NCBI GenBank assembly: GCA_008015505.1
Contig: SSFR01000001.1
Location: 62,001 to 126,000 of the forward strand
Reading direction: 5' to 3'
DNA from: Pedobacter sp.
GTDB lineage: Bacteria; Bacteroidota; Bacteroidia; Sphingobacteriales; Sphingobacteriaceae
Length of the DNA stretch: 64,000 bases
Below the pieces are notes generated by a model that saw only the letters and a program-made list of their open reading frames with translations, was not told the DNA's origin and searched no databases. Of the stretch, positions 7,996-22,488 are shown piece by piece. The position numbers and the translations under genes were made by a program. Position 1 is the stretch's first letter. Each line of letters opens with the position of its first letter.

Positions 7996-8973
7996 TTAAT
8001 TATGGGCTTTGTAAGCCTTAATCGCTTCTGTTAACTTAGGTACGACTTCAAATGCATCGCCCACAACACCATAATCGGCGGCTTTAAAGAAAGGCGCCTC
8101 GGGGTCTTTATTAATAACTACTATAGTTTTTGATGAACTTACTCCCGCTAAATGCTGGATTGCTCCGGAAATACCTACTGCAATATACAAATTTGGACTA
8201 ATTGCGATACCTGTCTGACCAACATGTTCTTCATGAGGCCGCCAGTCTGCGTCAGAAACGGGTTTAGAGCACGCTGTTGCAGCACCTAATACATCTGCTA
8301 GCTCCTCGATCATCCCCCAATTTTCTGGACCTTTCATTCCTCGACCTGCAGAAACAACAAGTTCGGCTTCGGGCAGTGAAACTTTATTCGTTGCTCTGAC
8401 CACCTCTTTAATCGTAGCACTGAAATCAGACGCTTTTAATTCAACAACAAAGTCTTCTATAGTGGCCGTCAGCCCGTATTCTTTAAGTGGATACGAATTG
8501 GGATTTAATGTGATGATTTTTATCACCGAATCAATCTCAACAAAAGCATAAGCCTTACCTGAAAAAGCCGTCTTTTTAACGGTAAAAATATTATTGTCTA
8601 TTTGAGGCAACTCCAATACCCCATCAACCAAACCTGCCTGCAACTTCACTGAAACACGAGGGGCTAAACCCTTTCCTGAAAAAGAATTGGCCAGAACAAG
8701 TACATCCGCATTAATATGTTTCACAGCTTCTGCTAAAACAGTTGCATAAGCCTGGTTGGCAAAAGACTTTAATTTATCGGTACTAACTCGAAGTACTTTG
8801 GAGGCCCCGTAGTTTCCTAAAAGATTCAAGCTGCCCTGATCTACATCTCCAATAGAAATTGCCACCAATTCTGTCTTTAACTGATCTGCAATTGCTTTAG
8901 AATAAGAAACTACTTCAAAAGTGGATTTTTTGAACTTTCCACTAACGTTTTCTACATATACTAGAACTGACAT
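7996..8973 (-). CDS. etfA: Electron transfer flavoprotein, alpha subunit
   Basis: A 325-residue EtfA, which with EtfB forms the FAD/AMP-binding heterodimer that takes electrons from acyl-CoA dehydrogenases and passes them to the quinone pool. The C-terminal FAD domain shows SAGRGMKGPENW, the ATACSKPVSDADWRP block, and HVGQTGIAISPNLYIA followed by GISGAIQH. It lies 24 bases after etfB. Confidence 0.96.
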   Translation of the reverse strand: MSVLVYVENVSGKFKKSTFEVVSYSKAIADQLKTELVAISIGDVDQGSLNLLGNYGASKVLRVSTDKLKSFANQAYATVLAEAVKHINADVLVLANSFSGKGLAPRVSVKLQAGLVDGVLELPQIDNNIFTVKKTAFSGKAYAFVEIDSVIKIITLNPNSYPLKEYGLTATIEDFVVELKASDFSATIKEVVRATNKVSLPEAELVVSAGRGMKGPENWGMIEELADVLGAATACSKPVSDADWRPHEEHVGQTGIAISPNLYIAVGISGAIQHLAGVSSSKTIVVINKDPEAPFFKAADYGVVGDAFEVVPKLTEAIKAYKAHN

Positions 8974-8997
8974 ATTGTTTTATGGGTTGAAATGTAT

Positions 8998-9735
8998 TTA
9001 AATAACCTTTGCTTCAGTATGTAACAAGTTAACTAATTCAGCGATTTCTGCTTCCGACACTAGCTTGACTGTGCCCCGAGGAGCAGGAGTGCTGAACTTT
9101 TTAAATGTTAGAAACTTAGGCGTTTGGACAGGCTCAATCACTTGCAATGGTTTTGTTCTTGCCGACATAATCCCGCGCATGTTAGGAATCTTAGGTTCAG
9201 CTACCCCCTCAGCACAACTCACAATCACTGGTACAGAAACACTAACTACTTCCTTTCCCCCCTCAATTTCGCGATGAGCGGTCACCACCTGCCCGTCTAA
9301 TGCTAACTCTTTTACTATGGATATAGATGGAATATCTAAAAATTCACCAAGCATTGCAGCTACCTGCGAACCATTATAATCAATTGACTCACGACCTGTA
9401 AGAATCAAATCAAACCCTTTTCCCCTAGCATAAGTAGCAATCTGGTTCGCTACAAAATAAGCATCTCGAGGTGCAGCATTAATACGAACAGCATCATCAG
9501 CTCCTATAGCAAGCGCTTTACGAATAGTTGGCTCACTACTAATCTCTCCTACGTGTATAACAGTAATTGTTCCCTTCCCCCCCTCAGCCAACTCGATAGC
9601 ACGAGACAGCGCAATTTCATCATAAGGATTAAGAACGAATTGTACCCCAGTAGTATTGAATTGGGTATTTTCGTTGGTAAAGGTTATTTTTGTCGTGGTA
9701 TCCGGGACGTTACTCACACAAACTAAAATTTTCAT
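8998..9735 (-). CDS. etfB: Electron transfer flavoprotein, beta subunit
   Basis: A 245-residue EtfB. Recognisable blocks are the N-terminal KILVCVSNVPDTT, DLILTGRESIDYNGSQV near residue 115-130, and SVPVIVSCAEGVAEPKIPNM with the family signature. It binds AMP and the recognition loop for partner dehydrogenases. First gene of the etfBA operon. The putative promoter lies about 260 bases upstream, giving an unusually long leader. Confidence 0.96.
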   Translation of the reverse strand: MKILVCVSNVPDTTTKITFTNENTQFNTTGVQFVLNPYDEIALSRAIELAEGGKGTITVIHVGEISSEPTIRKALAIGADDAVRINAAPRDAYFVANQIATYARGKGFDLILTGRESIDYNGSQVAAMLGEFLDIPSISIVKELALDGQVVTAHREIEGGKEVVSVSVPVIVSCAEGVAEPKIPNMRGIMSARTKPLQVIEPVQTPKFLTFKKFSTPAPRGTVKLVSEAEIAELVNLLHTEAKVI

Positions 9736-9994
9736 GTGTTCAATTTATTTTTATTGGTCATGATTAGTCATGAACCGGGTTAATTATTCAGGACTCGTAA
9801 GGGTTACCCTTCTTGGCCTGTGATGATTTCACAGCTATATAAGTTTTATTATTTAGGTACTTCTCAAAGTAGAGATAATGTTTAAAAATGCTCGCTCCTT
9901 TCTACTTAATTGAAGATGCATAAAGGGCCTTGTGTTCAATCTGATTAACAAATACTGACTGAAAATAATTCCATATTAAGGCCCCGATTTTGCA

Positions 9995-10002: not shown

Positions 10003-10031
10003 GTTAAAAATTGTACACCACATTATAGATT

Positions 10032-10370
10032 ATGCAAAGCGACAATCGGCTTGAACAACTTCTGAAATTTCTAAAACAAGAACCTGATGACCCATTCCTA
10101 CAATATGCCCTGGCAACAGAACATCTTCGCAGAAATAAACTTGAACTAGCATTATTTTATTATGAGAGTTTAGTGGACAAACACCCCTCCTATTTGGGAA
10201 CATATTATCACCTAGGCAAACTTTATGAACAACTGGATCGTCAGGCAGATGCCATAAAAACTTACCAAACCGGGATGCAACTAGCCAAAGATACTGGAGA
10301 CCTGCATGCCTTTTCCGAATTACAAAATGTTTATAATGCAATTATTAGATTAGACTATGAAGACGACTAA
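10032..10370 (+). CDS. Small TPR-repeat protein
   Basis: A 112-residue protein made of about two and a half tetratricopeptide repeats (DPFLQYALATEHLRRNKLEL, then YLGTYYHLGKLYEQLDRQAD). It has no signal peptide. TPR helices mediate protein-protein contacts; the partner is unknown. Its 3' end overlaps the start of the chromate transporter by 14 bases, so the two are translated from one transcript. Confidence 0.8.
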   Translation: MQSDNRLEQLLKFLKQEPDDPFLQYALATEHLRRNKLELALFYYESLVDKHPSYLGTYYHLGKLYEQLDRQADAIKTYQTGMQLAKDTGDLHAFSELQNVYNAIIRLDYEDD

Positions 10371-11583
10371 GCTAAGTCGTTTAAGAAAAAAAAACAAACT
10401 TCTCTTTTTGAGGGATGTAATTTGGTTTACACTATCTGCTTTTGGTGGCGCACAAGTTCATGTCAGTATGATGCTCCGCGATTTTGTCAAAAAACGTAGA
10501 TATATTACAGAACCTGAGCTCTTTGAACTCAATGCCTTAACTCAAGTGCTCCCTGGACCAGCTTCTACACAAACCTTAGTCGGCATTGCTTATAAAGTAG
10601 GTGGCCTGCCTGTTGCCATCATTACTTTTTTAATCTGGGTTCTCCCTTCTGCCATTGTCATGGGGGCTGCAACTATCAGCTATTCTTTACTCGATCAAAA
10701 GGATAAGCTTGATCACGTGACGGAATTTATCCAGCCAATGGCTGTTGGTATTGTCGCCTTTGCCACTTATACATTTGGTAAAACAGTCTTAAAAACCGGG
10801 GTGGGCATATGGTTAGCTATAGCCTCATTCATCACAAGCCTTATTTTAAGAAATGCTTATGTGTTTCCTATTTTGATTCTACTTGGTGGGGTCATTTCAT
10901 CCGCTATAGAGACTCCTTTGGAAGAAAGCCGACTGAGGTTTAAGCTATTTTCCAATATCAACCCAAAAAAAATAGCCTATTTCATTGGCATATTACTATT
11001 TTTTGCTACGCTCGGGGCATTAATAAGCCGAACCTCTCCATTTAGTTTGCCTATTCGCTTGTTTGAAAATTTTTACCGAAATGGTATCCTCATTTTTGGT
11101 GGTGGTCAGGTACTAATTCCTTTTATGTTCACAGAATTTGTAGAGATGAAGCATTACCTCAGCTCAGAAGAGTTCCTATCAGGTTTTGCTTTACAGCAAG
11201 CACTCCCCGGACCAACCTTCGCTTTCACCTCTTTTTTAGGGGGTATGGCCATGAAAAATGCCGGATGGGGAATGTCTGGTCAAGCACTAGGAAGTTTGGT
11301 TGCCGTAATAGGTATTAACCTACCGGGTCTTATCCTCATTCTTTTTATCGTCCCCTTCTGGAATGATTTGAGAAAAATTACACGAATCAAAAATTCATTA
11401 TCGGGTATTAATTCAGTTTCAGTAGGTTTTATGGGAGCAACATTTCTTTTTCTACTACACCCAATCAATCTCAATTGGCAAGCTATTGGAACGATGGCCT
11501 TCACTTTTTTGATATTAACTTTTACTAAAGTGAAGACCCCCATTTTAATCTTAATAGGAATTTTATTGGGATTCCTTTTTTAG
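10357..11583 (+). CDS. chrA: Chromate transporter, ChrA/CHR family
   Basis: A 408-residue membrane protein with the two-domain CHR architecture. The first domain shows FTLSAFGGAQVHVSMMLRDF and LTQVLPGPASTQT (residues about 24-75). The second repeats the pattern as FGGGQVLIPFM and LQQALPGPTFAFTSFLGGM (about residues 245-295). The duplicated PGP motif is diagnostic. CHR proteins export chromate, or act on sulfate-like anions; actual substrate here is not proven. The start overlaps the TPR gene. Confidence 0.9.
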   Translation: MKTTKLSRLRKKNKLLFLRDVIWFTLSAFGGAQVHVSMMLRDFVKKRRYITEPELFELNALTQVLPGPASTQTLVGIAYKVGGLPVAIITFLIWVLPSAIVMGAATISYSLLDQKDKLDHVTEFIQPMAVGIVAFATYTFGKTVLKTGVGIWLAIASFITSLILRNAYVFPILILLGGVISSAIETPLEESRLRFKLFSNINPKKIAYFIGILLFFATLGALISRTSPFSLPIRLFENFYRNGILIFGGGQVLIPFMFTEFVEMKHYLSSEEFLSGFALQQALPGPTFAFTSFLGGMAMKNAGWGMSGQALGSLVAVIGINLPGLILILFIVPFWNDLRKITRIKNSLSGINSVSVGFMGATFLFLLHPINLNWQAIGTMAFTFLILTFTKVKTPILILIGILLGFLF

Positions 11584-11604
11584 CAATAATTTGCCCTCGC
11601 TTTT

Positions 11605-11852
11605 ATCTCTCCTAATTCATCGTACATTTCAATGAGTCCCTTAGGGTTGTGCAAATTGAAGGGACTATTCTCACTATTGTTCCTAACGACAATAAAATGA
11701 CAAAGCAAACGATGACTCATAAAGTAGACAATCATCAATCATCCTTAAGCCGAATATGAATCTATCAGAGGTAAGGTGCTCAATAAATCACTTACTACTA
11801 ACATAATTCAAATCAGATAAGGCACAATAGAGAACTATTTAATTGTAATCCT
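11605..11852 (+). pseudogene. Decayed C-terminal fragment of an HlyD-type adaptor gene
   Basis: This otherwise empty 310-base gap contains a recognisable relic of the adaptor gene at 21160-22488. In one frame, 11646-11700 reads VVQIEGTILTIVPNDNKM, matching FVQAGEAIFTIVPNRNKM of the intact protein. After a frame change, 11753-11850 reads EYESIRGKVLNKSLTTNIIQ, stop, then GTIENYLIVIL, matching EYGSIRGKV..., SLTTNVIQ and GAVENYLIIV. At the DNA level GAATCTATCAGAGGTAAGGT at 11759-11778 matches the intact gene except for one base. It has frameshifts, an internal deletion and a stop, and no start. It shows a second exporter locus once stood here. Confidence 0.8.
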
Positions 11853-11893
11853 TCTTTCATTATTTTCACCTCGATTTATTTCATCAAAACCAC

Positions 11894-13372
11894 ATGCCCC
11901 ATAACCATTCTAAAAAATTTCAACGAAGCTTAGTATGGCTACGTCGAGATCTTCGCTTAAAAGACAATGCCGCACTTTACAAAGCACTACAGCAAAGTGA
12001 ACACGTATGGTTATTATTTGTACTCGATAAAGAAATACTAGATCCTTTGATCGAACAAGGCTTAACAAAGGATCGTCGGCTTAGTTTTATATACGATTCT
12101 TTAGAAGAATTAAACAACACTTTGGCTTCGCTCGGAACGGGTTTAATCCTTCGTCATGGGCAGGCACGCACCTGTGTCCCCGAAATAGCTGAACTTTTAC
12201 AAGTAGATGCCGTATGGACCAATCAAGACTATGAGCCTATGGCTATTGCTCGTGACCGTGATATTGATTTAATATTAAAAAAAAATAAACGGCATTTTTT
12301 TTTACTGAAGGACCAAACCATTTTTCACCAAAATGAAATTTTAACTAAATCTGGACAAGCTTATTCGATTTTTACACCTTACAAAAAAGCTTGGCTAGAA
12401 AAATTAACACCATCACATCTTCTGCCTTATTCTATAAAACCCTACTTAAATGCACTAGCCCCTATTCCCGATCACATGACTCCTCATTGGCCAAGCCTGG
12501 AAAGCATTGGTTTTCAACGGCAGCCTTTATCACACCCTGGAGGCACGCGTGGTGCTCAAATATTATTAAACAAATTTTCTGAACACGTCAGTCTCTATCA
12601 TCTTCAAAAAGATTATCCAGCTCTATCAGGATCTAGCGAGCTCTCTGTTCATTTGCGCTTTGGTACCATTTCTATACGACAACTTGCACAGTCCGCTTAC
12701 ACAAAAATGCAGGCAGGAGATCCAGGGGCCAAAAGCTGGTTATCCGAGCTTATTTGGCGAGACTTTTACTTCATGATTTTATATCATCACCCTAAACTGG
12801 CAGAAGGCGCCTCCTTCAAGCCAGAATACGACGCCATTGAATGGGAAAGGGGCCCTCAAGCACAGCTCCTTTTTGAGACTTGGTGTAAAGCCACTACTGG
12901 ATATCCAATCATTGATGCCGCAATGCGGCAACTCAATCAAACCGGATGGATGCATAATCGTTTGCGGATGATCGTTGCTAGTTTTCTCTGTAAAGACTTA
13001 GGTGTCGATTGGCGATGGGGAGAGTATTATTTTGCACAACAGCTCAACGACTTTGACTTAGCTGCTAACAATGGCGGCTGGCAATGGGTTTCTTCCAGCG
13101 GCTGTGATGCTCAGCCTTATTTCCGAATTTTCAACCCCATATTACAGTCTAAAAAATTTGATCCTGAAGGAATTTTTATTCGAAAATATATCCCAGAATT
13201 GCGACAGCTACCCAACCAATGGATTCATTGTCCTTGGCTAGCTCCAACAAATACACTTTCAGATTTGGGAGTAAAACTTGGAGAAAATTATCCCCAACCC
13301 ATCATAAACCATCAGTATGCCCGAGAGCAAACTTTAAAACGCTACGCTACTGTCAAAACTCAAGCAAAATAA
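11894..13372 (+). CDS. Deoxyribodipyrimidine photolyase / cryptochrome family
   Basis: A 492-residue flavoprotein of the photolyase family that repairs UV-induced cyclobutane pyrimidine dimers with blue light. The N-terminal antenna domain begins LVWLRRDLRLKDNAAL (residue about 13). The C-terminal FAD domain shows LSVHLRFGTISIRQL, LIWRDFYFMI, TGYPIIDAAMRQLNQTGWMH, the NRLRMIVASFL block and NDFDLAANNGGWQW, ending FRIFNPILQSKKFDP. All lie in the class I (CPD photolyase) pattern. It sits between the hlyD relic and the cassette array and reads in the same direction; no functional link is evident. Confidence 0.93.
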   Translation: MPHNHSKKFQRSLVWLRRDLRLKDNAALYKALQQSEHVWLLFVLDKEILDPLIEQGLTKDRRLSFIYDSLEELNNTLASLGTGLILRHGQARTCVPEIAELLQVDAVWTNQDYEPMAIARDRDIDLILKKNKRHFFLLKDQTIFHQNEILTKSGQAYSIFTPYKKAWLEKLTPSHLLPYSIKPYLNALAPIPDHMTPHWPSLESIGFQRQPLSHPGGTRGAQILLNKFSEHVSLYHLQKDYPALSGSSELSVHLRFGTISIRQLAQSAYTKMQAGDPGAKSWLSELIWRDFYFMILYHHPKLAEGASFKPEYDAIEWERGPQAQLLFETWCKATTGYPIIDAAMRQLNQTGWMHNRLRMIVASFLCKDLGVDWRWGEYYFAQQLNDFDLAANNGGWQWVSSSGCDAQPYFRIFNPILQSKKFDPEGIFIRKYIPELRQLPNQWIHCPWLAPTNTLSDLGVKLGENYPQPIINHQYAREQTLKRYATVKTQAK

Positions 13373-13533
13373 TTAAACACTATTAGACAGGCTTAGTATC
13401 TCAAAGACCCAAAACAAGCTAAATCGCAACCCACCCCCCATAATAATAGAATAAATTTCAAATAATTTCTTAATTTTTTTCGCTGAAATTTATCGTAGCA
13501 TTGCATTTTCTAACTTCAACACACCTATTTTTC

Positions 13534-14754
13534 ATGAAACAAAAATTCCAATTAAAAAATCTCTTAAAAAAGAAACCAGCACGATTGACCATTGCCGAAA
13601 TGATGATCGATCCGGCATTTACAGTTTTAACCGACGAGCAAAAGGCAGCGAAGAAGGCGGGATTTACGGATGAGCAATTTAATCGGAACGACTTTGAAAG
13701 TGCCAATTTAAGATTGGTGAGCAACAACGGCTTTAATCCTGTAAATAATCATTTAGGCCGAGGAGGTAGCCATAACTTTACTAGCAGCTTTCCCCATGCA
13801 TCAAGCATGGATACAGAGGTTAAACCAGAGGTTCGTACAAGTGGTGGGGAACCTACCTATCTTGGCCGCCATTTGCCTGAAGTGAGAATAACTGCTACCC
13901 CTATTCATGGTCCTAGTAATCACTACGGTCCCTTTGATGCCAACTACTTCAATCCTTCAAATATTAAAAGACGCCTTAGAAACATACGGGAAGCAAAAGA
14001 AGCTGCAGCCAAGTTAAAGAAAGAACAAAATGCAGAAATGCGTCGTATAGCTTCTCAATTTTCGGGTAATGGTACTACTCTCGAACAAGAGACTTGGTAT
14101 GTAGAGGCAAGGATGAAATATAGCCCAGAATTTTATCGTAATAATCGTCCAAAGTATGCGCCTCATACCCCCAGCACGAATGTTACTACACCTGTTACAG
14201 AAGAGATGTTAGCTAAATGGGCTGCTGAAATAACCCCAGAATCTCCCTCACTATCTGAACAACTAGTTAAAGATCCGAGTAAATCCACAGATAAATTTTC
14301 AGTGAATACAACGCCACTCCCTAATGGCTCCAATTTAGGAAGCAGCATTACTGGACCTGGAACAGACCCCTTGAGGTCGGCAGTATCTAAAGTTCAGGTA
14401 GCAAATCCATCTTTTACATACAATGGATCTACTGGGCTGTATGATGCAATGGTAAACATGATAAGTTCTGTTGATCTAACACTTTCAGGTACCCAGGCTG
14501 CTGCTAAGGTGATGGAGGTAAACCTGCCTAAGTTTATGGGGGTAGCAGGGAAGGTAGCACCTTTAGGGGGACTTATAGATAATGGTGTTCAAATATCTCA
14601 AGGCTTTAATTGGAATGATGCTGCTCAGCTGGCAGTTGGGGGTGTTTTGGTAGGCTTTAGTGCTACATTAGGAGCTCCAGTCGTGTTTGTAGGTGGGCTT
14701 GGTTTATTTGTATGGGAGTTGGGTGAGACTTATTTAGAACAAAACAAGAATTAG
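13534..14754 (+). CDS. Cassette 1 bacteriocin-like secreted protein
   Basis: A 406-residue protein I do not recognise from any named family. The N-terminal 45 residues (MKQKFQLKNLLKKKPARLT, AEMMIDPAFTVL, TDEQKAAKKAGF) are almost identical in cassettes 2 and 3. The middle is polar and differs between copies; it contains GRHLPEVRITATPI, a motif also present in copy 3. The last 120 residues are conserved in all three: LYDAMVNMISSVDLTLSGTQ, then a glycine/alanine-rich hydrophobic hairpin ending VFVGGLGLFVWELGETY. The ATG at 13534 is preferred to an in-frame TTG at 13501 because homology between copies begins there. The membrane-protein gene starts two bases after the stop. Linkage to a C39 exporter and a paired membrane protein suggest an exported toxin; activity is inferred. 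Confidence 0.7.
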   Translation: MKQKFQLKNLLKKKPARLTIAEMMIDPAFTVLTDEQKAAKKAGFTDEQFNRNDFESANLRLVSNNGFNPVNNHLGRGGSHNFTSSFPHASSMDTEVKPEVRTSGGEPTYLGRHLPEVRITATPIHGPSNHYGPFDANYFNPSNIKRRLRNIREAKEAAAKLKKEQNAEMRRIASQFSGNGTTLEQETWYVEARMKYSPEFYRNNRPKYAPHTPSTNVTTPVTEEMLAKWAAEITPESPSLSEQLVKDPSKSTDKFSVNTTPLPNGSNLGSSITGPGTDPLRSAVSKVQVANPSFTYNGSTGLYDAMVNMISSVDLTLSGTQAAAKVMEVNLPKFMGVAGKVAPLGGLIDNGVQISQGFNWNDAAQLAVGGVLVGFSATLGAPVVFVGGLGLFVWELGETYLEQNKN

Positions 14755-14756
14755 TC

Positions 14757-15176
14757 ATGGGATTACCAAAATATTTCATCTTTTTAATTTTCAATCATTA
14801 TTACAGAGATGGGAACTATAAGGAAATAGAGGTACCTTACTTTACTGCTGCTGCAAGTATAGCGGTATACGAGAGCTTCATACTTATTGTAGCCATGCAT
14901 TTTATAAAAAACTATATAAATTTTGCGCTCCCGTTTAATCTTTTAAGCTCTCTGGATGGGATAATTTATGGAAGGGGGATGCTTATTCTAGCGTTGATAT
15001 ATCCTGTTAATCACTATTTTTTAATTACAAAGAACCGTTTTGATCGCATTTATAATGAATTTAAAAATGCTAAAATGAACACAAAGAAGAACAGAATAAT
15101 TGGCTACATCTGCTTGATACTCTATTGGCCTATAATGGTTGGGATAATCGGTCACTTAAAATACTGGTTCCCCTAA
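14757..15176 (+). CDS. Cassette 1 membrane protein, putative immunity
   Basis: A 139-residue protein with three or four hydrophobic segments (about 5-15, 30-55, 75-97 and 113-135). It shares with its paralogues in cassettes 2 and 3 an N-terminal YRDG motif, the block YNEFKNAKMNTKKNRIIGYI, and the C-terminal GHLKYWFP. It begins two bases after the large protein stops, so the two are translated together. One small membrane protein per toxin-like protein is the usual layout for immunity to pore-forming bacteriocins, where the immunity protein sits in the inner membrane. That role is inferred; no known family was recognised. Confidence 0.65.
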   Translation: MGLPKYFIFLIFNHYYRDGNYKEIEVPYFTAAASIAVYESFILIVAMHFIKNYINFALPFNLLSSLDGIIYGRGMLILALIYPVNHYFLITKNRFDRIYNEFKNAKMNTKKNRIIGYICLILYWPIMVGIIGHLKYWFP

Positions 15177-15190
15177 AGCCATAAAAATCT

Positions 15191-15231
15191 CACCCCTAAA
15201 ATGCCCTAACCTCGTTTTTAGGGGTGGTTTT
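15191..15231 (+). terminator. Terminator of cassette 1
   Basis: Arms CACCCCTAAAA (15191-15201) and TTTTAGGGGTG (15216-15226) form an 11-bp stem followed by GTTTT. The same hairpin follows cassettes 2 and 3, so each cassette is a closed transcription unit. Confidence 0.85.
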
Positions 15232-15301
15232 AAAACAAATCATAAAAACATCTAAGCCCATGTTCAATCAAACCATCCTTATAATCTATCTATCCTAATC
15301 C

Positions 15302-15385
15302 ATGTTAAAATCCTTCCCCAACGAGCGGCAGCTTGATATGATGGACTGTGGCGCTGCTTGGCTGAAAGCAATCAATATTAAATAA
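15302..15385 (+). pseudogene. Truncated copy of the C39 exporter 5' end, first
   Basis: The sequence from the terminator through 15358 is nearly identical to 18747-18914, the region leading into the intact exporter gene. It encodes MLKSFPNERQLDMMDCGAA, including the catalytic-Cys motif of the C39 domain, then diverges to WLKAINIK and stops (27 residues). It is a footprint left where a later cassette was inserted in, or recombined at, the start of the exporter gene. It is too short to be a peptidase. Confidence 0.85.
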
Positions 15386-15507
15386 TCATTAAAGTAAATT
15401 TCATTATCTAAATAATTTCAAAAATCATTTTTAGAATAAAATCATTTACACTAGAATTGCGCCAAAATAAATCAACGACTCTACTCAATTCAACACACCT
15501 ATTTTTT
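15302..15507 (+). repeat. 206-bp direct repeat, copy A (copy B 17218-17423)
   Basis: 15302-15507 and 17218-17423 align without gaps and differ by a single base (T/C three bases... immediately before the ATG region). The repeat holds the exporter footprint and the whole 5' region of cassettes 2 and 3, so both cassettes share the same promoter and leader. Identity continues with few changes into the first 45 codons. Cassette 1 shares only the last 20 or so bases (AACACACCTATTTTT) before its ATG. No strong TTG / TAnnTTTG pair is seen; TAGAATTG at 15452-15459 is a one-mismatch -7 box. Confidence 0.9.
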
Positions 15508-16704
15508 ATGAAACAAAAATTCCAATTAAAAAATCTCTTAAAAACCAAACCAGCACGATTGACCATTGACGAAATGATGATCGATCCGGCATTTACAGTT
15601 TTAACCGACGAGCAAAAGGCAGCGAAGAAGGCGGGATTTACGGATGATGTTTTGGTTAACAACAACTTTGAAAGTCGTGTTGGGCTAATGAATGTTAGTC
15701 GGGCTGAAACAAAGTTCACTCGAACAAAGAGAGATGGTGGTGGTATGTTTGGGGCTAATGGCAGTGGAGCGACTGTAGTAGGATCACCAATTAACAATGG
15801 CAATACTAACTGGAGTGGTGGTCCCAGCGGATCGATGAGCGGCTCCAATCCTACAGGAAATCAATCTCAATCTGGGGATGGCTCGCCGCATACGACACCA
15901 CAATACATTAAATATCAAACACTTATACATGCAAAACATGCTGATAAACTTTCCCATGCGAGTATTCAACCTATCACCCAAAAAATCAAACAAAAACCAC
16001 CAGTGCTAATAAAGCTTACTCCGACCATATCACCTACTAAACCTAGTGTTACTCCAGATGCATCAAGAAAACCTGAATTAGTCCCCAGTATTAATCCTAT
16101 AAATACGCCAAAAGTCGAAACAGGAGCTTCCCAGAGTACACTTGTTAATACGAGTCTTGTTGACAAAACTAATGTGGGAGATGAGTGGAAATATAAAAAC
16201 GGGGGAACTTCCATTCCCTTACCAGAAGTACTTGTTAAGACTACCCCGACTAATAAAACAACTCCATTACCTAATGGCTCCAATTTAGGAGGCAGCATTA
16301 CAGGCCCTGGAACAGATCCCTTGAGGTCGGCAGTATCTAAGGTTCAAGTAGCAAATCCATCTTTTACATACAATGGATCTACTAGGCTGTATGATGCAAT
16401 GGTGAACATGATGAGCTCTATTGATCTAACACTTTCAGGTACCCAGGCTGCTGCTAAGGTGATGGAAGTAAACCTTCCCAAGTTTATGGGGGTAGCGGGT
16501 AAAGTATCTTATTTGGGTCCTCTTGATAATGTGAGACAAATAGCAATGGAGGGATTTAACTGGAATGACGCTGCACAAGCAGTGGCAGGAACTGTTTTGA
16601 TAGGCTTTAGTGCAACTTTAGGAGCGCCGGTAGTTTTTATAGGCACTCTTGGCTTATTTGCTTGGGAACTAGGCGAAACGTATATAAATCAACAGAAAAA
16701 CTAG
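15508..16704 (+). CDS. Cassette 2 bacteriocin-like secreted protein
   Basis: A 398-residue paralogue of the cassette 1 protein. The leader is the same except for a few residues (LKTKPARLTIDEMMID). The middle is different: glycine/serine-rich (NGNTNWSGGPSGSMSGSNP), then a Thr/Pro/Lys-rich stretch with repeats of TPTISPTKPS type, then PLPEVLVKTTPT. The C-terminal 130 residues match cassette 1 closely from PLPNGSNLGGSITGPGTDPL onward, ending in the hydrophobic hairpin VFIGTLGLFAWELGETY. The start is the ATG at 15508; an in-frame TTG 51 bases upstream is outside the conserved coding region. The partner membrane gene begins immediately after its stop. Probably exported by the downstream C39 transporter; toxin role inferred. 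Confidence 0.7.
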   Translation: MKQKFQLKNLLKTKPARLTIDEMMIDPAFTVLTDEQKAAKKAGFTDDVLVNNNFESRVGLMNVSRAETKFTRTKRDGGGMFGANGSGATVVGSPINNGNTNWSGGPSGSMSGSNPTGNQSQSGDGSPHTTPQYIKYQTLIHAKHADKLSHASIQPITQKIKQKPPVLIKLTPTISPTKPSVTPDASRKPELVPSINPINTPKVETGASQSTLVNTSLVDKTNVGDEWKYKNGGTSIPLPEVLVKTTPTNKTTPLPNGSNLGGSITGPGTDPLRSAVSKVQVANPSFTYNGSTRLYDAMVNMMSSIDLTLSGTQAAAKVMEVNLPKFMGVAGKVSYLGPLDNVRQIAMEGFNWNDAAQAVAGTVLIGFSATLGAPVVFIGTLGLFAWELGETYINQQKN

Positions 16705-17127
16705 ATGATGAGACTATTGAGATATTTAATTTTTTTAACCTTCAACATTTCTTACAGAGATGGCCACGTTAAAATAAATAGCACACCAAGGGCTGATGCC
16801 ACTTGTATTCTAATGTTATATGAATACTTGATCGCTATAGTCTGCATATTCTTTTTGAGCAAACACGTAGATTTGGGTTTAATTTCTGATACCCTAAATC
16901 CTCTAGACAACATGGTTTACGGATGGGGTATGTTAATGTTCATTATAGGCTATCCAATAAACTACTACTATTTCGTAAAAAAGGGCTGGCTCGATAGCGT
17001 ATATATGGAGTTTAAAGATGCTGCAATGAACACTAAAAGGAACCGGATTATCGGCTATATCTGCTTGATTTTGTATCTGTTAATAATGATCGCAATCATT
17101 GGCCATCTAAAATACTGGTTCCCTTAA
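16705..17127 (+). CDS. Cassette 2 membrane protein, putative immunity
   Basis: A 140-residue paralogue of the cassette 1 partner, with the same arrangement of hydrophobic segments, the YRDG motif near residue 18, NTKRNRIIGYICLILY and the terminal GHLKYWFP. The N-terminal two thirds differ more than the C-terminal third, as expected if that part is matched to the variable region of its own toxin. The ATG directly follows the toxin stop codon; a second in-frame ATG at 16708 is equally possible. Immunity role inferred from position. Confidence 0.65.
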   Translation: MMRLLRYLIFLTFNISYRDGHVKINSTPRADATCILMLYEYLIAIVCIFFLSKHVDLGLISDTLNPLDNMVYGWGMLMFIIGYPINYYYFVKKGWLDSVYMEFKDAAMNTKRNRIIGYICLILYLLIMIAIIGHLKYWFP

Positions 17128-17141
17128 AACCATAAAAACTT

Positions 17142-17181
17142 CACCCCTAAAATGCCCTAACCTCATTTTAGGGGTGGTTTT
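17142..17181 (+). terminator. Terminator of cassette 2
   Basis: Same stem as after cassette 1: CACCCCTAAAA (17142-17152) with TTTTAGGGGTG (17166-17176), then GTTTT. The loop is one base shorter. Confidence 0.85.
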
Positions 17182-17217
17182 AAAACAAACCATCCTTATA
17201 ATCTATCTATCCTATAC

Positions 17218-17301
17218 ATGTTAAAATCCTTCCCCAACGAGCGGCAGCTTGATATGATGGACTGTGGCGCTGCTTGGCTGAAAGCAATCAATATTAAATA
17301 A
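17218..17301 (+). pseudogene. Truncated copy of the C39 exporter 5' end, second
   Basis: Identical to the fragment at 15302-15385: 19 exporter codons up to the catalytic-Cys motif DCGAA, then the same divergent WLKAINIK tail and stop. The upstream spacer is shorter by about 30 bases than in copy one. Two identical footprints show that the unit was duplicated after the first footprint formed. Confidence 0.85.
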
Positions 17302-17423
17302 TCATTAAAGTAAATTTCATTATCTAAATAATTTCAAAAATCATTTTTAGAATAAAATCATTTACACTAGAATTGCGCCAAAATAAATCAACGACTCTAC
17401 TCAATTCAACACACCTATTTTTC

Positions 17424-18310
17424 ATGAAACAAAAATTCCAATTAAAAAATCTCTTAAAAACCAAACCAGCACGATTGACCATTGCCGAAATGATGATTGA
17501 TTCGGCCTTTACAGTTTTAACCGACGAACAAAAGGCAGCGAAGAAGGCGGGGTTTACGGATGATGTCTTGGTTAACAACAACCTTGAAAAGAGTATCGGG
17601 CTAATGAATATCGATGGACTTGAATCCAAATTAACTCGAACAAAGAGGAGTAATTATGGACGCCAATTACCCGAAGTAGTAATAACTGCATCCCCTATCA
17701 ACCACAATAACGACCACTATTCCCAAGCTACCAATAATCCATTTAATACACCAGATCCTCATCAAGCCAGAGACCAACAGAGACGTATTTCAGCTCGATA
17801 TAAGTTTTTCCTAGCACAGACCGAGAAATCATAAACGCAAACAAGGGAAAGAACAAGCCCTTTTTTCAAGGAATAAATCCTATTTACTCAAGAACAGAGC
17901 TACGAACTATTCCCAATCCTAATTATAATGCTATAACTCCCGTGAAAAACCCTCCTTTTAAGTTCAATGGATCTACTAAACTGTATGATGCAATGGTAAA
18001 CATGATAAGCTCTATTGATCTGACGTTTTCAGGTACCCAAGCTGCTGCCAAAGTAATGCAAACTAGCCTTCCCAAGTTCCTTGGAACAGCAGGAAAAGTG
18101 ACTCCATGGGTAGGCATTGTAGACAATGTCAGACAAATGACTATTGAGGGTTTTAATAGAAATGATGTAGCTCAATTAGCCACTGGAGCAGCCTTAATAG
18201 GAGTGGGTTTTGTTGGCGGCACGGCAGCAGCACCTGTTGTATTTGTTGGCGGTCTAGGCTTGTTTGTTTGGGAGCTAGGAGAAGCATACATGAGCCAACA
18301 AAAGAATTAG
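17424..18310 (+). pseudogene. Cassette 3 bacteriocin-like protein, frameshifted
   Basis: The leader and middle run from 17424 to a stop at 17832 (136 residues); they include the conserved leader and GRQLPEVVITASPI. The conserved C-terminus continues in another frame, open from 17804 through 18310, and contains KLYDAMVNMISSIDLTFSGT and the hydrophobic hairpin ending FVWELGEAY. The total of 887 bases is one short of a whole number of codons. The frames can only be joined between 17804 and 17832, and the run of five T at 17805-17809 is the obvious site: one more T would give a 295-residue protein. This may be a real mutation, slippage control, or a sequencing error. The C-terminal part could be started alone at GTG 17942. 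Confidence 0.75.
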
Positions 18311-18312
18311 TA

Positions 18313-18732
18313 ATGAGAGTCTTGAGATATCTCATCTTTTTAATATTCAATCTATCCTACAAGGATGGTAATCACCAAGAGAATGATATGCCGCATGTAG
18401 GAGCTGCTTCTATTGTAATGGGTTATGAATGTTGTATGCTTGTTATATTCGCCTTCTTTTTTAACAAATACATGAATCTTACATTCATTACCAATATTTT
18501 AAAGCCTTTGGATAATATAGTATATGGTTGGGGAATGCTCATATGTATATTCATGTATCCAATCAATCATTATTATTTTATCAAAAAAAATCACCTTGAC
18601 CATATCTATAATGAATTTAAAAATGCCAAGATTAACACAAAGAGAAATCGAATCATAGGCTATACCTGCCTGATACTTTATTGGCCAATAATGGTCGCAG
18701 TTGCTGGCCACTTAAAATACTGGTTCCCCTAA
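18313..18732 (+). CDS. Cassette 3 membrane protein, putative immunity
   Basis: A 139-residue paralogue of the partner proteins in cassettes 1 and 2 (YKDG near residue 17, NEFKNAKINTKRNRIIGYTC, GHLKYWFP end). The ATG at 18313, two bases after the toxin stop, is chosen over an upstream in-frame ATG at 18268 because it aligns with the paralogues. It stays intact although its toxin is broken, which is what would be expected if it protects against related toxins still made by the array or by neighbours. Role inferred. Confidence 0.65.
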   Translation: MRVLRYLIFLIFNLSYKDGNHQENDMPHVGAASIVMGYECCMLVIFAFFFNKYMNLTFITNILKPLDNIVYGWGMLICIFMYPINHYYFIKKNHLDHIYNEFKNAKINTKRNRIIGYTCLILYWPIMVAVAGHLKYWFP

Positions 18733-18746
18733 AGCCATAAAACCTT

Positions 18747-18786
18747 CACCCCTAAAATGCCCTAACCTCATTTTAGGGGTGGTTTT
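18747..18786 (+). terminator. Terminator of cassette 3
   Basis: Same hairpin: CACCCCTAAAA (18747-18757) and TTTTAGGGGTG (18771-18781) followed by GTTTT. It separates cassette 3 from the exporter genes, which then need read-through or their own promoter in the 72 bases before 18858. Confidence 0.85.
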
Positions 18787-18857
18787 AAAAACAAATCATA
18801 AAAACATCTAAGCCCATGTTCAATCAAACCATCCTTATAATCTATCTATCCTAATCC

Positions 18858-21110
18858 ATGTTAAAATCCTTCCCCAACGAGCGGCAGCTTGATATGATGG
18901 ACTGTGGCGCTGCTTGCTTGAAAATGATTGCCAAATATTACGGCAAATACTATTCTCTTCAATTTTTTCGAGATAAATGCGGCCTAACTAAAGAAGGGGC
19001 TTCTATGCTCGATTTGAGTTACGCGGCCGAAAGTGTGGGTTTACATACCCTTTCGATCACTTGTACAATGGAGGAATTACTCAAACGCGTGCCTTTCCCC
19101 TGCATCATTCATTGGAATGAAAACCACTACATCGTGGTTTACAAAGTGTCAAAAACTACGGTATATGTTTCTGATCCAGCCAAAGGCCATGTAAGCTATA
19201 CATTAACCGAATTCGATAAAAAATGGCATAAAAACGAGCAAGGCAAAGGAACCTTGATGACCGTGGAACCGCAAGCTGACTTTAAGCAAAGAGAAGGCAT
19301 GCAGCGACTCGAGCGCAAAAAGACCTTTGAAAACATATTGGGCTATTTTACGCCCTATAAAAATAGCTTCATCAATTTATTTGTCGTCATGCTGATTGTG
19401 ACTGCTTTGGAAGCTTTGTTACCCTTTATCTCAAAAGCAGTGATTGATGTGGGTATTCAAACACAGGATCTTAATTTTATCAATATTGTACTGATTGCCA
19501 ACATTACCATCATTGTGAGCATCACCCTGTCGGACATTGTACGCGATTGGATTATGCTACATCTAGCTTCGCGCATCAATATCGCATTGATTTCAGATTA
19601 CCTCACCAAGTTGATGAAACTCCCCATCACCTTTTTCGAAACCAAAATGACAGGCGATATCCTGCAGCGTGCTAACGATCATGAACGGATTCGCAGTTTC
19701 ATCATGAACAATTCGTTAGGCGTCATTTTCTCGACCATCACCTTTGTAGTGTTTGGCGTGATTTTATTGATTTATAATAAGATGATATTCTCCATTTTCC
19801 TAGCTGGGAGTATCTTATATGTACTCTGGGTGTTTGCCTTTCTTGCCATCCGCAAGAAGTTGGATTGGGAGTATTTCGAAATCGAATCAAAAAACCAAAG
19901 CTATTGGGTCGAAACGGTAGGTAGCATCCAAGACATCAAACTAAATAACTACGAAAAATTGAAACGCTGGAAATGGGAGGGTATTCAGGCCCGTATGTTT
20001 AAAGTGAACTTGAAGGTGTTAAACATCAATAATTTTCAAAACTCGGGAGCCCATTTTATTGACCAGCTCAAAAATTTGTTGATCACCTTTTGCTGCGCCC
20101 GAGCAGTGATTGCAGGAGAAATTACATTTGGGGTGATGATTTCCACCCAATTCATTATTGGGATGCTGAATGGTCCAGTCGTGCAATTTATTCAGTTTAT
20201 TATTGCCGGTCAATTTGCTAGAATCAGCTTTTTACGTCTCAACGAAATTCATCAGCTCGAAGATGAAGACGAAAATATGGGCATGGGTAGCATCGAACTT
20301 CCTAGTAATAAGGATTTATTCTTGGATAATATCGTGTTTCAATACTCACCCAATGCACCAGCAGTGCTCAAAGGGATTCACCTAATCATTCCCGAAGGGA
20401 AAATAACGGCTATTGTAGGTGATAGTGGGAGTGGTAAATCGACTTTGCTGAAAGTGATTTTGCGCTTGTATAAACCCTCGTACGGGCAACTACTAATCGG
20501 CGGGATGAATGTAAACAATATCAGTTTACGCCAATGGCGCGATCGCTGTGGCGCAGTGATGCAGGATGGAAAAATGTTTAATGATACCATTTTAAACAAC
20601 ATTGTACTCGATGATGAGCGCATCGATTACCAACGATTGAAGCATGCAGTAGAAACGGCCAATATTGCTTTTGAAATTGAACAACTGCCCTTGGGCTATC
20701 AAACCATCATGGGTGAACAAGGTCGCGGTTTGAGTGGAGGTCAGAAACAACGAATTCTCATTGCCCGTGCATTATACAAAAACCCTGATTTTTTAATTTT
20801 CGATGAGGCGACCAATGCATTAGACACCATCAATGAACAAAAAATTGTGTCTGCACTGGAAAATGTATTTCGGGGTAAGACTGTCATAGTGGTTGCACAT
20901 CGCTTAAGCACCATCCGAAAAGCCGATCAAATTGTGGTGATGCGTGATGGTATGATAGCTGAAATAGGGGACCATGAATCGCTGATGAAACAACAAGGAC
21001 GGTACTACCAACTAGTGCAATCGCAAGTAGACTTAGTCTCAACTGTAGAACTTTTAGCGGAACATAAGTGTGACGTAAGGGCAAAACGCTTGGTAGTAGA
21101 TACCCATTGA
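18858..21110 (+). CDS. C39-peptidase ABC exporter (PCAT)
   Basis: A 750-residue peptidase-containing ABC transporter of the bacteriocin/microcin export type. The N-terminal C39 domain (about 1-135) has Gln10, Cys16 in MMDCGAAC, His90 in NENHYIVVY and Asp106 in VSDPAKG, so it looks catalytically complete. Six membrane segments follow (about 165-430), then the ATPase domain: Walker A GDSGSGKST (about 520), signature GLSGGQKQR, Walker B LIFDEATNALD and the switch His in VAHRLST. It would cleave leader peptides on the cytosolic side and export the core with the HlyD partner and a TolC-like channel. It lies after the three cassettes and is the presumed exporter of their large proteins. Confidence 0.95.
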   Translation: MLKSFPNERQLDMMDCGAACLKMIAKYYGKYYSLQFFRDKCGLTKEGASMLDLSYAAESVGLHTLSITCTMEELLKRVPFPCIIHWNENHYIVVYKVSKTTVYVSDPAKGHVSYTLTEFDKKWHKNEQGKGTLMTVEPQADFKQREGMQRLERKKTFENILGYFTPYKNSFINLFVVMLIVTALEALLPFISKAVIDVGIQTQDLNFINIVLIANITIIVSITLSDIVRDWIMLHLASRINIALISDYLTKLMKLPITFFETKMTGDILQRANDHERIRSFIMNNSLGVIFSTITFVVFGVILLIYNKMIFSIFLAGSILYVLWVFAFLAIRKKLDWEYFEIESKNQSYWVETVGSIQDIKLNNYEKLKRWKWEGIQARMFKVNLKVLNINNFQNSGAHFIDQLKNLLITFCCARAVIAGEITFGVMISTQFIIGMLNGPVVQFIQFIIAGQFARISFLRLNEIHQLEDEDENMGMGSIELPSNKDLFLDNIVFQYSPNAPAVLKGIHLIIPEGKITAIVGDSGSGKSTLLKVILRLYKPSYGQLLIGGMNVNNISLRQWRDRCGAVMQDGKMFNDTILNNIVLDDERIDYQRLKHAVETANIAFEIEQLPLGYQTIMGEQGRGLSGGQKQRILIARALYKNPDFLIFDEATNALDTINEQKIVSALENVFRGKTVIVVAHRLSTIRKADQIVVMRDGMIAEIGDHESLMKQQGRYYQLVQSQVDLVSTVELLAEHKCDVRAKRLVVDTH

Positions 21111-21159: not shown

Positions 21160-22488
21160 ATGACTACAACATCCACCCTAAAAAATAAATTCCACCAACG
21201 AGCTGAACGTACCGAAGAAATACAGGACATCATCGATCGGATGCCTACCAGCTTTGCTAAATGGATATCCATCATTGTGGGATGCTTGTTTATCATTCTA
21301 CTGGTACTGGGTTGGTTTATTCGTTATCCCGATATTGTTACGGGACAAGTAACAATAAATGCCAATAACTCTCCTATCAAGCTAATTGCAAATAGCGCCG
21401 GGAAATTGCACTTGTTAACGCAGTCGTATCAAACTGTTAAAGAGGGAGATTATGTGGCTTATGTTAAAAATTCAGCCAACATGGATGATGTCAAAAAGGT
21501 AAGTGACTTGATGCATCATTTCAATATTAATTCTGAAAGAAGCATTGATCAATTGTCCCTTTTTCCAAAGGATGTTTCTTTAGGAGAGTTGAACGTGAAA
21601 TATTTTGCCTTTATTAATGCCCTACAGCAATTGTCCAATTATCGTAAAGAAAATCTATTTGCTGAGCAACGCGAAATTTTGGAACACATCATCATTAAAC
21701 AGCGTGCAATATTACAAGCATCTAAACAAAAGCTACTTTTTAACAAGCAAAATCTCGCTTTAACTAAGAAATTCTACATACGCGATTCAACTTTATTGAG
21801 CCAAAATGTGTTGGCACACGCTGATTTTGATAAAACTGAAATGGGCTATCTCAATGCCAAAGACGGTTATCTAAGTATGCATCGCGAAATTATCCAACAC
21901 AATCAACAAATTCGGGAAACAGAAAATAAATTACAACAAACCATCATTCAGGAACATGAGAAACAAAAACAAATGAATTTGGATTTAGCTTCTACCTACA
22001 CCGATTTGACTGATCATTTGGAACAATGGGAGCAAAAATATGTTTTCAAGTCACCTATGGATGGTAAAGTACAGTTCCTAAAATTTTGGGTTAATAATCA
22101 TTTTGTGCAAGCTGGAGAGGCCATTTTCACCATTGTTCCCAACAGAAATAAAATGGTAGGACAGGTGAATTTACCTTCCTCAGGGGCGGGTAAGGTAAAA
22201 GTAGGGCAGGGGGTAATTCTTAAACTAGAAAATTATCCTTATGTCGAATATGGATCTATCAGAGGTAAGGTGCGCAACATATCACTTACTACCAATGTGA
22301 TTCAAACTGGACAAGGCGCAGTCGAGAATTATTTAATTATTGTGGATTTACCAGATCAATTAAAAACTAATTATGGTTCTAGGCTCGATAGCAAGTTTGA
22401 GATTAAAGGTCTAGCTGAAATAATTACGAAAGATAGACGCCTAATTGAACGCTTGTTCGATAATTTGAAATATTCAGTAAAAAATTAA
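21160..22488 (+). CDS. HlyD-family secretion adaptor
   Basis: A 442-residue periplasmic adaptor anchored by one N-terminal membrane helix (about residues 38-57, ISIIVGCLFIILLVLGWFIR). It is followed by a biotinyl-like half (SPIKLIANSAGKLHLL), a long coiled-coil region (about 140-285) and the second lipoyl half with KSPMDGKVQFLKFWVN and GEAIFTIVPN. It bridges the C39 exporter to an outer-membrane channel. It starts 49 bases after the exporter. No TolC homologue is in this operon; the nearest, at 23796, belongs to the metal efflux operon. A decayed relative of its 3' part lies at 11605-11852. Confidence 0.93.
   Translation: MTTTSTLKNKFHQRAERTEEIQDIIDRMPTSFAKWISIIVGCLFIILLVLGWFIRYPDIVTGQVTINANNSPIKLIANSAGKLHLLTQSYQTVKEGDYVAYVKNSANMDDVKKVSDLMHHFNINSERSIDQLSLFPKDVSLGELNVKYFAFINALQQLSNYRKENLFAEQREILEHIIIKQRAILQASKQKLLFNKQNLALTKKFYIRDSTLLSQNVLAHADFDKTEMGYLNAKDGYLSMHREIIQHNQQIRETENKLQQTIIQEHEKQKQMNLDLASTYTDLTDHLEQWEQKYVFKSPMDGKVQFLKFWVNNHFVQAGEAIFTIVPNRNKMVGQVNLPSSGAGKVKVGQGVILKLENYPYVEYGSIRGKVRNISLTTNVIQTGQGAVENYLIIVDLPDQLKTNYGSRLDSKFEIKGLAEIITKDRRLIERLFDNLKYSVKN

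Follow-up and report, generated by a model that had tools for sequence, protein, structure and literature searches.

In the T6SS immunity arrays of Vibrio cholerae, effector-immunity units are added between conserved edges and older units are kept beside newer ones; homology-facilitated illegitimate recombination has been proposed for these arrays, and their differing cores have been taken to argue against duplication (Kirchberger et al. 2017, PMC5361080). The orphan rhs modules of Salmonella have repeated edges within one locus that permit homologous recombination between main and orphan modules (Koskiniemi et al. 2014, PMC3967940). In the polymorphic toxin systems, according to a broad survey, toxin-immunity pairs recombine as units with a constant 5' and a variable 3' portion (Zhang et al. 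2012, PMC3482391). Here we describe an array with features of this kind in a 64,000-nucleotide stretch of a Pedobacter sp. contig (the window), in which three cassettes lie upstream of a peptidase-ABC exporter gene. As in V. cholerae, units appear to have been added between conserved edges, the older beside the newer, but whereas V. cholerae has the effector displaced and immunity genes piling up on the 3' side, whole toxin-immunity cassettes are kept here, with a scar that derives from part of the exporter gene. The Salmonella orphans are described as fragments without start signals, whereas cassettes 1 and 2 here each have their own promoter, leader and start. Peptidase-ABC exporters are not among the delivery systems listed in the part of the polymorphic-toxin survey that was available.

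In each cassette a putative immunity gene follows the gene for a toxin-like precursor whose leader is conserved and whose C-terminal domain is hydrophobic (Table 1). In cassette 3 the toxin-like gene is frameshifted, possibly through an assembly error, whereas its immunity gene is intact. Neither Pfam nor NCBIfam supplies a name for the toxin-like or the immunity proteins, and a single-sequence structure model of the toxin C-terminal domain was unusable (mean pLDDT 37.5). We treat the genes as putative toxins and immunity proteins: the locus holds three variable pairs and homologous pairs stand in T6SS loci of the same genome, so that the gene arrangement fits a polymorphic toxin-immunity cassette. 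The exporter matches PF03412, PF00664 and PF00005, and its DCG motif is intact at codons 15–17, with the catalytic Cys present. When the array toxins were examined as double-glycine cargo, their leaders had no clear GG, the nearest sequence being KKAG; clear GG leaders are found on toxins with a similar C-terminal domain (loci L112, L049 and L047; genomes G058, G148 and G034).

Table 1. Features of the cassette array and its surroundings, in window coordinates.
Feature	Coordinates	Strand	Remarks
Decayed HlyD remnant	11647..11844	+	two blocks that match the 3' part of HlyD (21160-22488) at 77% and 82% identity
Cassette 1 promoter and 5' UTR	13440..13533	+	diverged homologue of the corresponding regions of cassettes 2 and 3
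Cassette 1 toxin-like precursor	13534..14754	+	406 aa; leader conserved, linker variable, C-terminal domain hydrophobic and rich in glycine
Cassette 1 putative immunity protein	14757..15176	+	139 aa, hydrophobic
Terminator hairpin after cassette 1	15191..15225	+	repeated after cassettes 2 and 3
Spacer before footprint 1	15232..15301	+	70 nt, identical to 18788-18857 preceding the exporter ATG
Footprint 1	15302..15360	+	exporter codons 1-19 and two bases of codon 20; 59 nt from ATG, 0 mismatches
Tail after footprint 1	15361..15381	+	about 21 nt, unmatched; between exporter piece and cassette 2 promoter
Cassette 2 promoter and 5' UTR	15382..15507	+	-7-like TAGAATTG at 15452-15459
Cassette 2 toxin-like precursor	15508..16704	+	398 aa
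Cassette 2 putative immunity protein	16705..17127	+	140 aa
Footprint 2	17218..17276 (frame to 17301)	+	same exporter piece, between cassettes 2 and 3
Tail after footprint 2	17277..17297	+	same 21-nt tail as 15361-15381
Cassette 3 promoter and 5' UTR	17298..17423	+	one mismatch relative to cassette 2
Cassette 3 toxin-like gene	17424..18310	+	frameshift near 17800 breaks the gene
Cassette 3 putative immunity protein	18313..18732	+	139 aa, intact
Intact exporter, source of the footprints	18858..21110	+	750 aa; C39 peptidase, ABC membrane and ATPase domains
HlyD-family adaptor	21160..22488	+	3' of exporter

Between cassettes 1 and 2 an 84-nt open frame (15302-15385) encodes MLKSFPNERQLDMMDCGAAWLKAINIK and a stop. 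From 70 nt upstream of its ATG to the second base of codon 20, it and its spacer agree base for base with the exporter over 129 nt; the BLAST E-value of the match is 1e-29, and chance is therefore excluded. The preliminary description had reported just such a copy of the exporter start, followed by a short tail and a stop, and had traced it almost exactly from the upstream terminator through codon 19. The copy is exact for 70 nt 5' of the ATG; farther up, through the terminator, it resembles the exporter flank with a few differences. The frame ends just past the 21-nt tail, which is this short because the sequence from 15382 onward is cassette promoter. As candidate sources of the tail, decayed exporter sequence was rejected (its alignment score was equalled in 501 of 2,000 shuffles) and the flank 5' of promoter 1 was unsupported (p about 0.30).

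What had been described as a single scar is present as reported but occurs twice, the second, identical copy lying at 17218-17301. The two footprints are identical over the 205 nt 3' of the ATG, which take in tail, promoter and 5' UTR, and they have one junction and tail in common; in the spacer 5' of footprint 2, about 33 nt are missing relative to the other copies. The promoter region of cassette 2 is homologous to that of cassette 1 and to that of the RTX gene on contig C15, next to a paralogous exporter. The homology score of promoter 1 was reached by none of 300 dinucleotide shuffles and by five of 2,000 mononucleotide shuffles. An integron-type array would have an integrase and attC-like sites; the sole hairpin that recurs where cassettes meet has the look of an ordinary terminator.

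We favor, with a probability of roughly two in three (0.66), the view that the footprint is a scar left by recombination as the array grew: two diverged alleles of the locus were joined out of register, and homologous recombination later copied the junction. The left allele, comprising promoter 1, cassette 1, terminator and exporter codons 1–20, would have ended at codon 20; the right allele would have started some 21 nt 5' of the promoter of its own cassette and continued through the cassette into a complete exporter. The resulting locus would retain the two cassettes and a single working exporter, and an exporter start of no use would stand between the cassettes. One abrupt junction is seen, at exporter codon 20. 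This junction looks illegitimate; on the other side, the identical flanks (spacer, exporter start and leader) could have supplied the anchor, in the manner of homology-facilitated illegitimate recombination. In a second step, an ordinary homologous unequal crossover would copy the whole unit. The homology open to it would be the 129 nt that the scar and the true exporter start have in common and the 205 nt or more over which the two scars agree, and the same junction and tail would then recur in both footprints because this later event copied the unit. We infer that the joined molecules came from different strains, and the order of events and the recombination pathway are put forward in the same sense. 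The join is supported by the exactness of the copies, by the shared junction, by the presence of a genuine cassette promoter rather than exporter sequence 3' of the junction, and by diverged cores between conserved edges. Two further lines of support are the lack of partial exporter-start copies at the other exporter loci searched and the analogous scars in relatives, both described below.

A different view is that the short frame is functional, either as a small peptide gene or as an exporter promoter that was captured and now serves the next cassette. Both copies have the same open frame, and the copied part at footprint 1 takes in everything between terminator and start codon. The two copies are too young, however, to show selection, footprint 2 is without part of its upstream spacer, and cassettes 2 and 3 have their own downstream promoter, similar to that of cassette 1; Rfam gives no match over 11500-19500. 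No such element was seen at any other exporter locus examined: the flanks of 67 other exporter loci held no partial copy of the exporter start, and a second scan, with exporter and HlyD genes, of other loci with both flanks turned up just one more partial transporter-gene copy, an HlyD start in genome G216. The short frame is thus confined to this array, and the independent conserved gene that the preliminary description had set against its own reading was not encountered at those 67 loci. We consider a functional frame highly improbable. Elsewhere, the locus is absent from 19 other genomes of the genus, where the edge sequence gives short matches only. Among named relatives Pinibacter soli has the one clear relative of the exporter (63%), with no footprint there. 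Searches for the junction source in viral contigs (with a 35-nt exact pattern) and of the 5.9-kb array region against plasmids returned nothing relevant.

The edges and cores of the cassettes differ in age. The dS value is 0 for the exporter start and 0.02–0.18 for the leaders, as against 0.69 to saturation for the toxin C-termini and above 2 or saturated for the immunity genes, and the column profile changes sharply at the leader and at the terminator. Drift after a plain duplication would age edges and cores together, and that history is therefore disfavored. The preliminary description had offered two routes, insertion of a new cassette in or at the start of the exporter gene and duplication of a unit that includes this edge; the second, taken as plain duplication and divergence, fares poorly for the cores, both from dS and from the relative G231. 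A more elaborate version, in which a tandem duplication within one chromosome ran from just before the promoter to exporter codon 20, the cores diverged in place and gene conversion preserved the likeness of exporter start, leaders and spacers, would produce the junction structure seen and agrees with the homology of promoters 1 and 2. It is also in keeping with the toxin C-terminus tree, where the three array members group together against two T6SS-linked ones (85/91 support), a grouping that would also be expected from a same-locus origin and so counts against the join. The immunity tree is neutral, the local clade being neither supported nor rejected (p-AU 0.45). Such a duplication needs selective homogenization of noncoding and coding edges while the adjacent cores reach synonymous saturation, and it cannot give the pattern of G231, dissimilar cores between edges that are 98% identical. 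We regard it as rather unlikely. Because gene conversion of the edges could mimic the age contrast, duplication is disfavored only: conversion between repeats could give young edges and old cores, which would allow an ancient duplication at the same locus.

It could also be supposed that every cassette once had a complete exporter and that the redundant copies were deleted from codon 20 on, leaving their starts. A decayed HlyD piece does lie upstream of the array, and genome G047 has two exporter genes about 11 kb apart, inside long near-identical repeats. No other exporter or HlyD sequence was found between the cassettes, however, and with one junction in both scars, any deletion must in any case have come before the copying. 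The remnant of HlyD, moreover, is paralogue-like in its divergence and is separated from the array by the photolyase gene. Deletion of former exporters is an improbable origin for the footprints. In its own right the remnant, which precedes both the photolyase gene and the array, marks an older transporter copy.

Related scars occur in relatives; recurrence was counted among loci scanned with both flanks, and the three other scarred loci lie outside this genus, a point against the join. In G216, HlyD codons 1–38 (113 nt, 98.2%) follow the first immunity gene and run into an orphan toxin C-terminus; this scar forms part of a 1.1-kb repeat (93%) whose end lies in the true HlyD gene. In G231 the second leader is preceded by a copy of the final 56 codons of the glycosyltransferase gene that lies 5' of the array. 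The two G231 toxins have 179 of 180 N-terminal residues in common, whereas their C-termini, with 50 identities in 162 aligned residues, are dissimilar, as are the immunity genes (62/240 identical); the edges around these cores are 98% identical. An older copy of the glycosyltransferase 3' end in G369 begins at the same codon of that gene, 157, as the copy in G231; the two genomes belong to one genus, so both copies may go back to one ancestral event, which likewise weakens the case from recurrence. Shared-leader arrays without a neighbor-gene scar were seen in G384, G249, G255 and G359. With exporter, HlyD and glycosyltransferase each represented, the scar is in each case taken from the gene next to the array, be it upstream or downstream. 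The proposal that the footprint marks array growth, already made in the preliminary description, gains from the exactness of the copy, its restriction to this locus and these analogous scars from other neighbor genes.

Several further loci bear on the cassette family. On contig C21 (L045, 392-1863) homologues of the array toxin C-terminal domain and immunity protein adjoin VgrG, and on contig C12 (L046, 8033-9120) a homologous toxin-immunity pair lies inside a T6SS operon with TssC, TssF and TssD. One toxin-immunity family thus seems to serve two delivery systems in this genome, and the cassettes appear able to change delivery system. On contig C15 (L043, 13881-16127) an exporter with 78% identity stands next to a 1547-aa protein with an RTX domain; DSG replaces the catalytic DCG, which suggests that this exporter transports without cleaving. 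A lanthipeptide-like locus on contig C11 (L044, 7334-15114) has its exporter in separate frames (10022-10621 and 8438-9991), and with two TAA stops inside the match it is probably disrupted. In G034 (contig C117, L049, 61-2245) a double-glycine toxin precedes three immunity-like genes that are nearly identical at their N-termini and diverged elsewhere, a further array with conserved edges.

The scar has parallels in T6SS immunity arrays and in orphan Rhs cassettes, and its setting is one for which we found no report; a search of titles and the beginnings of abstracts returned no account of exporter-gene scars in peptidase-ABC cassette arrays, which is weak evidence of novelty. A tentative extension, against which the odds still lie, is that the exporter start is a standing landing pad and the transporter gene itself the growing edge of a strain-variable toxin array. 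If this is true, whole-cassette gain and loss after the first scar would be ordinary homologous recombination through identity with the exporter start. The scars record which edges recombine as bacteria collect toxin-immunity pairs. That they derive from three different neighbor genes suggests that array growth leaves a signature which is general, and can be read, at the peptidase-ABC exporter loci of Bacteroidota, and such scars make cassette gain and loss directly testable in strain collections.
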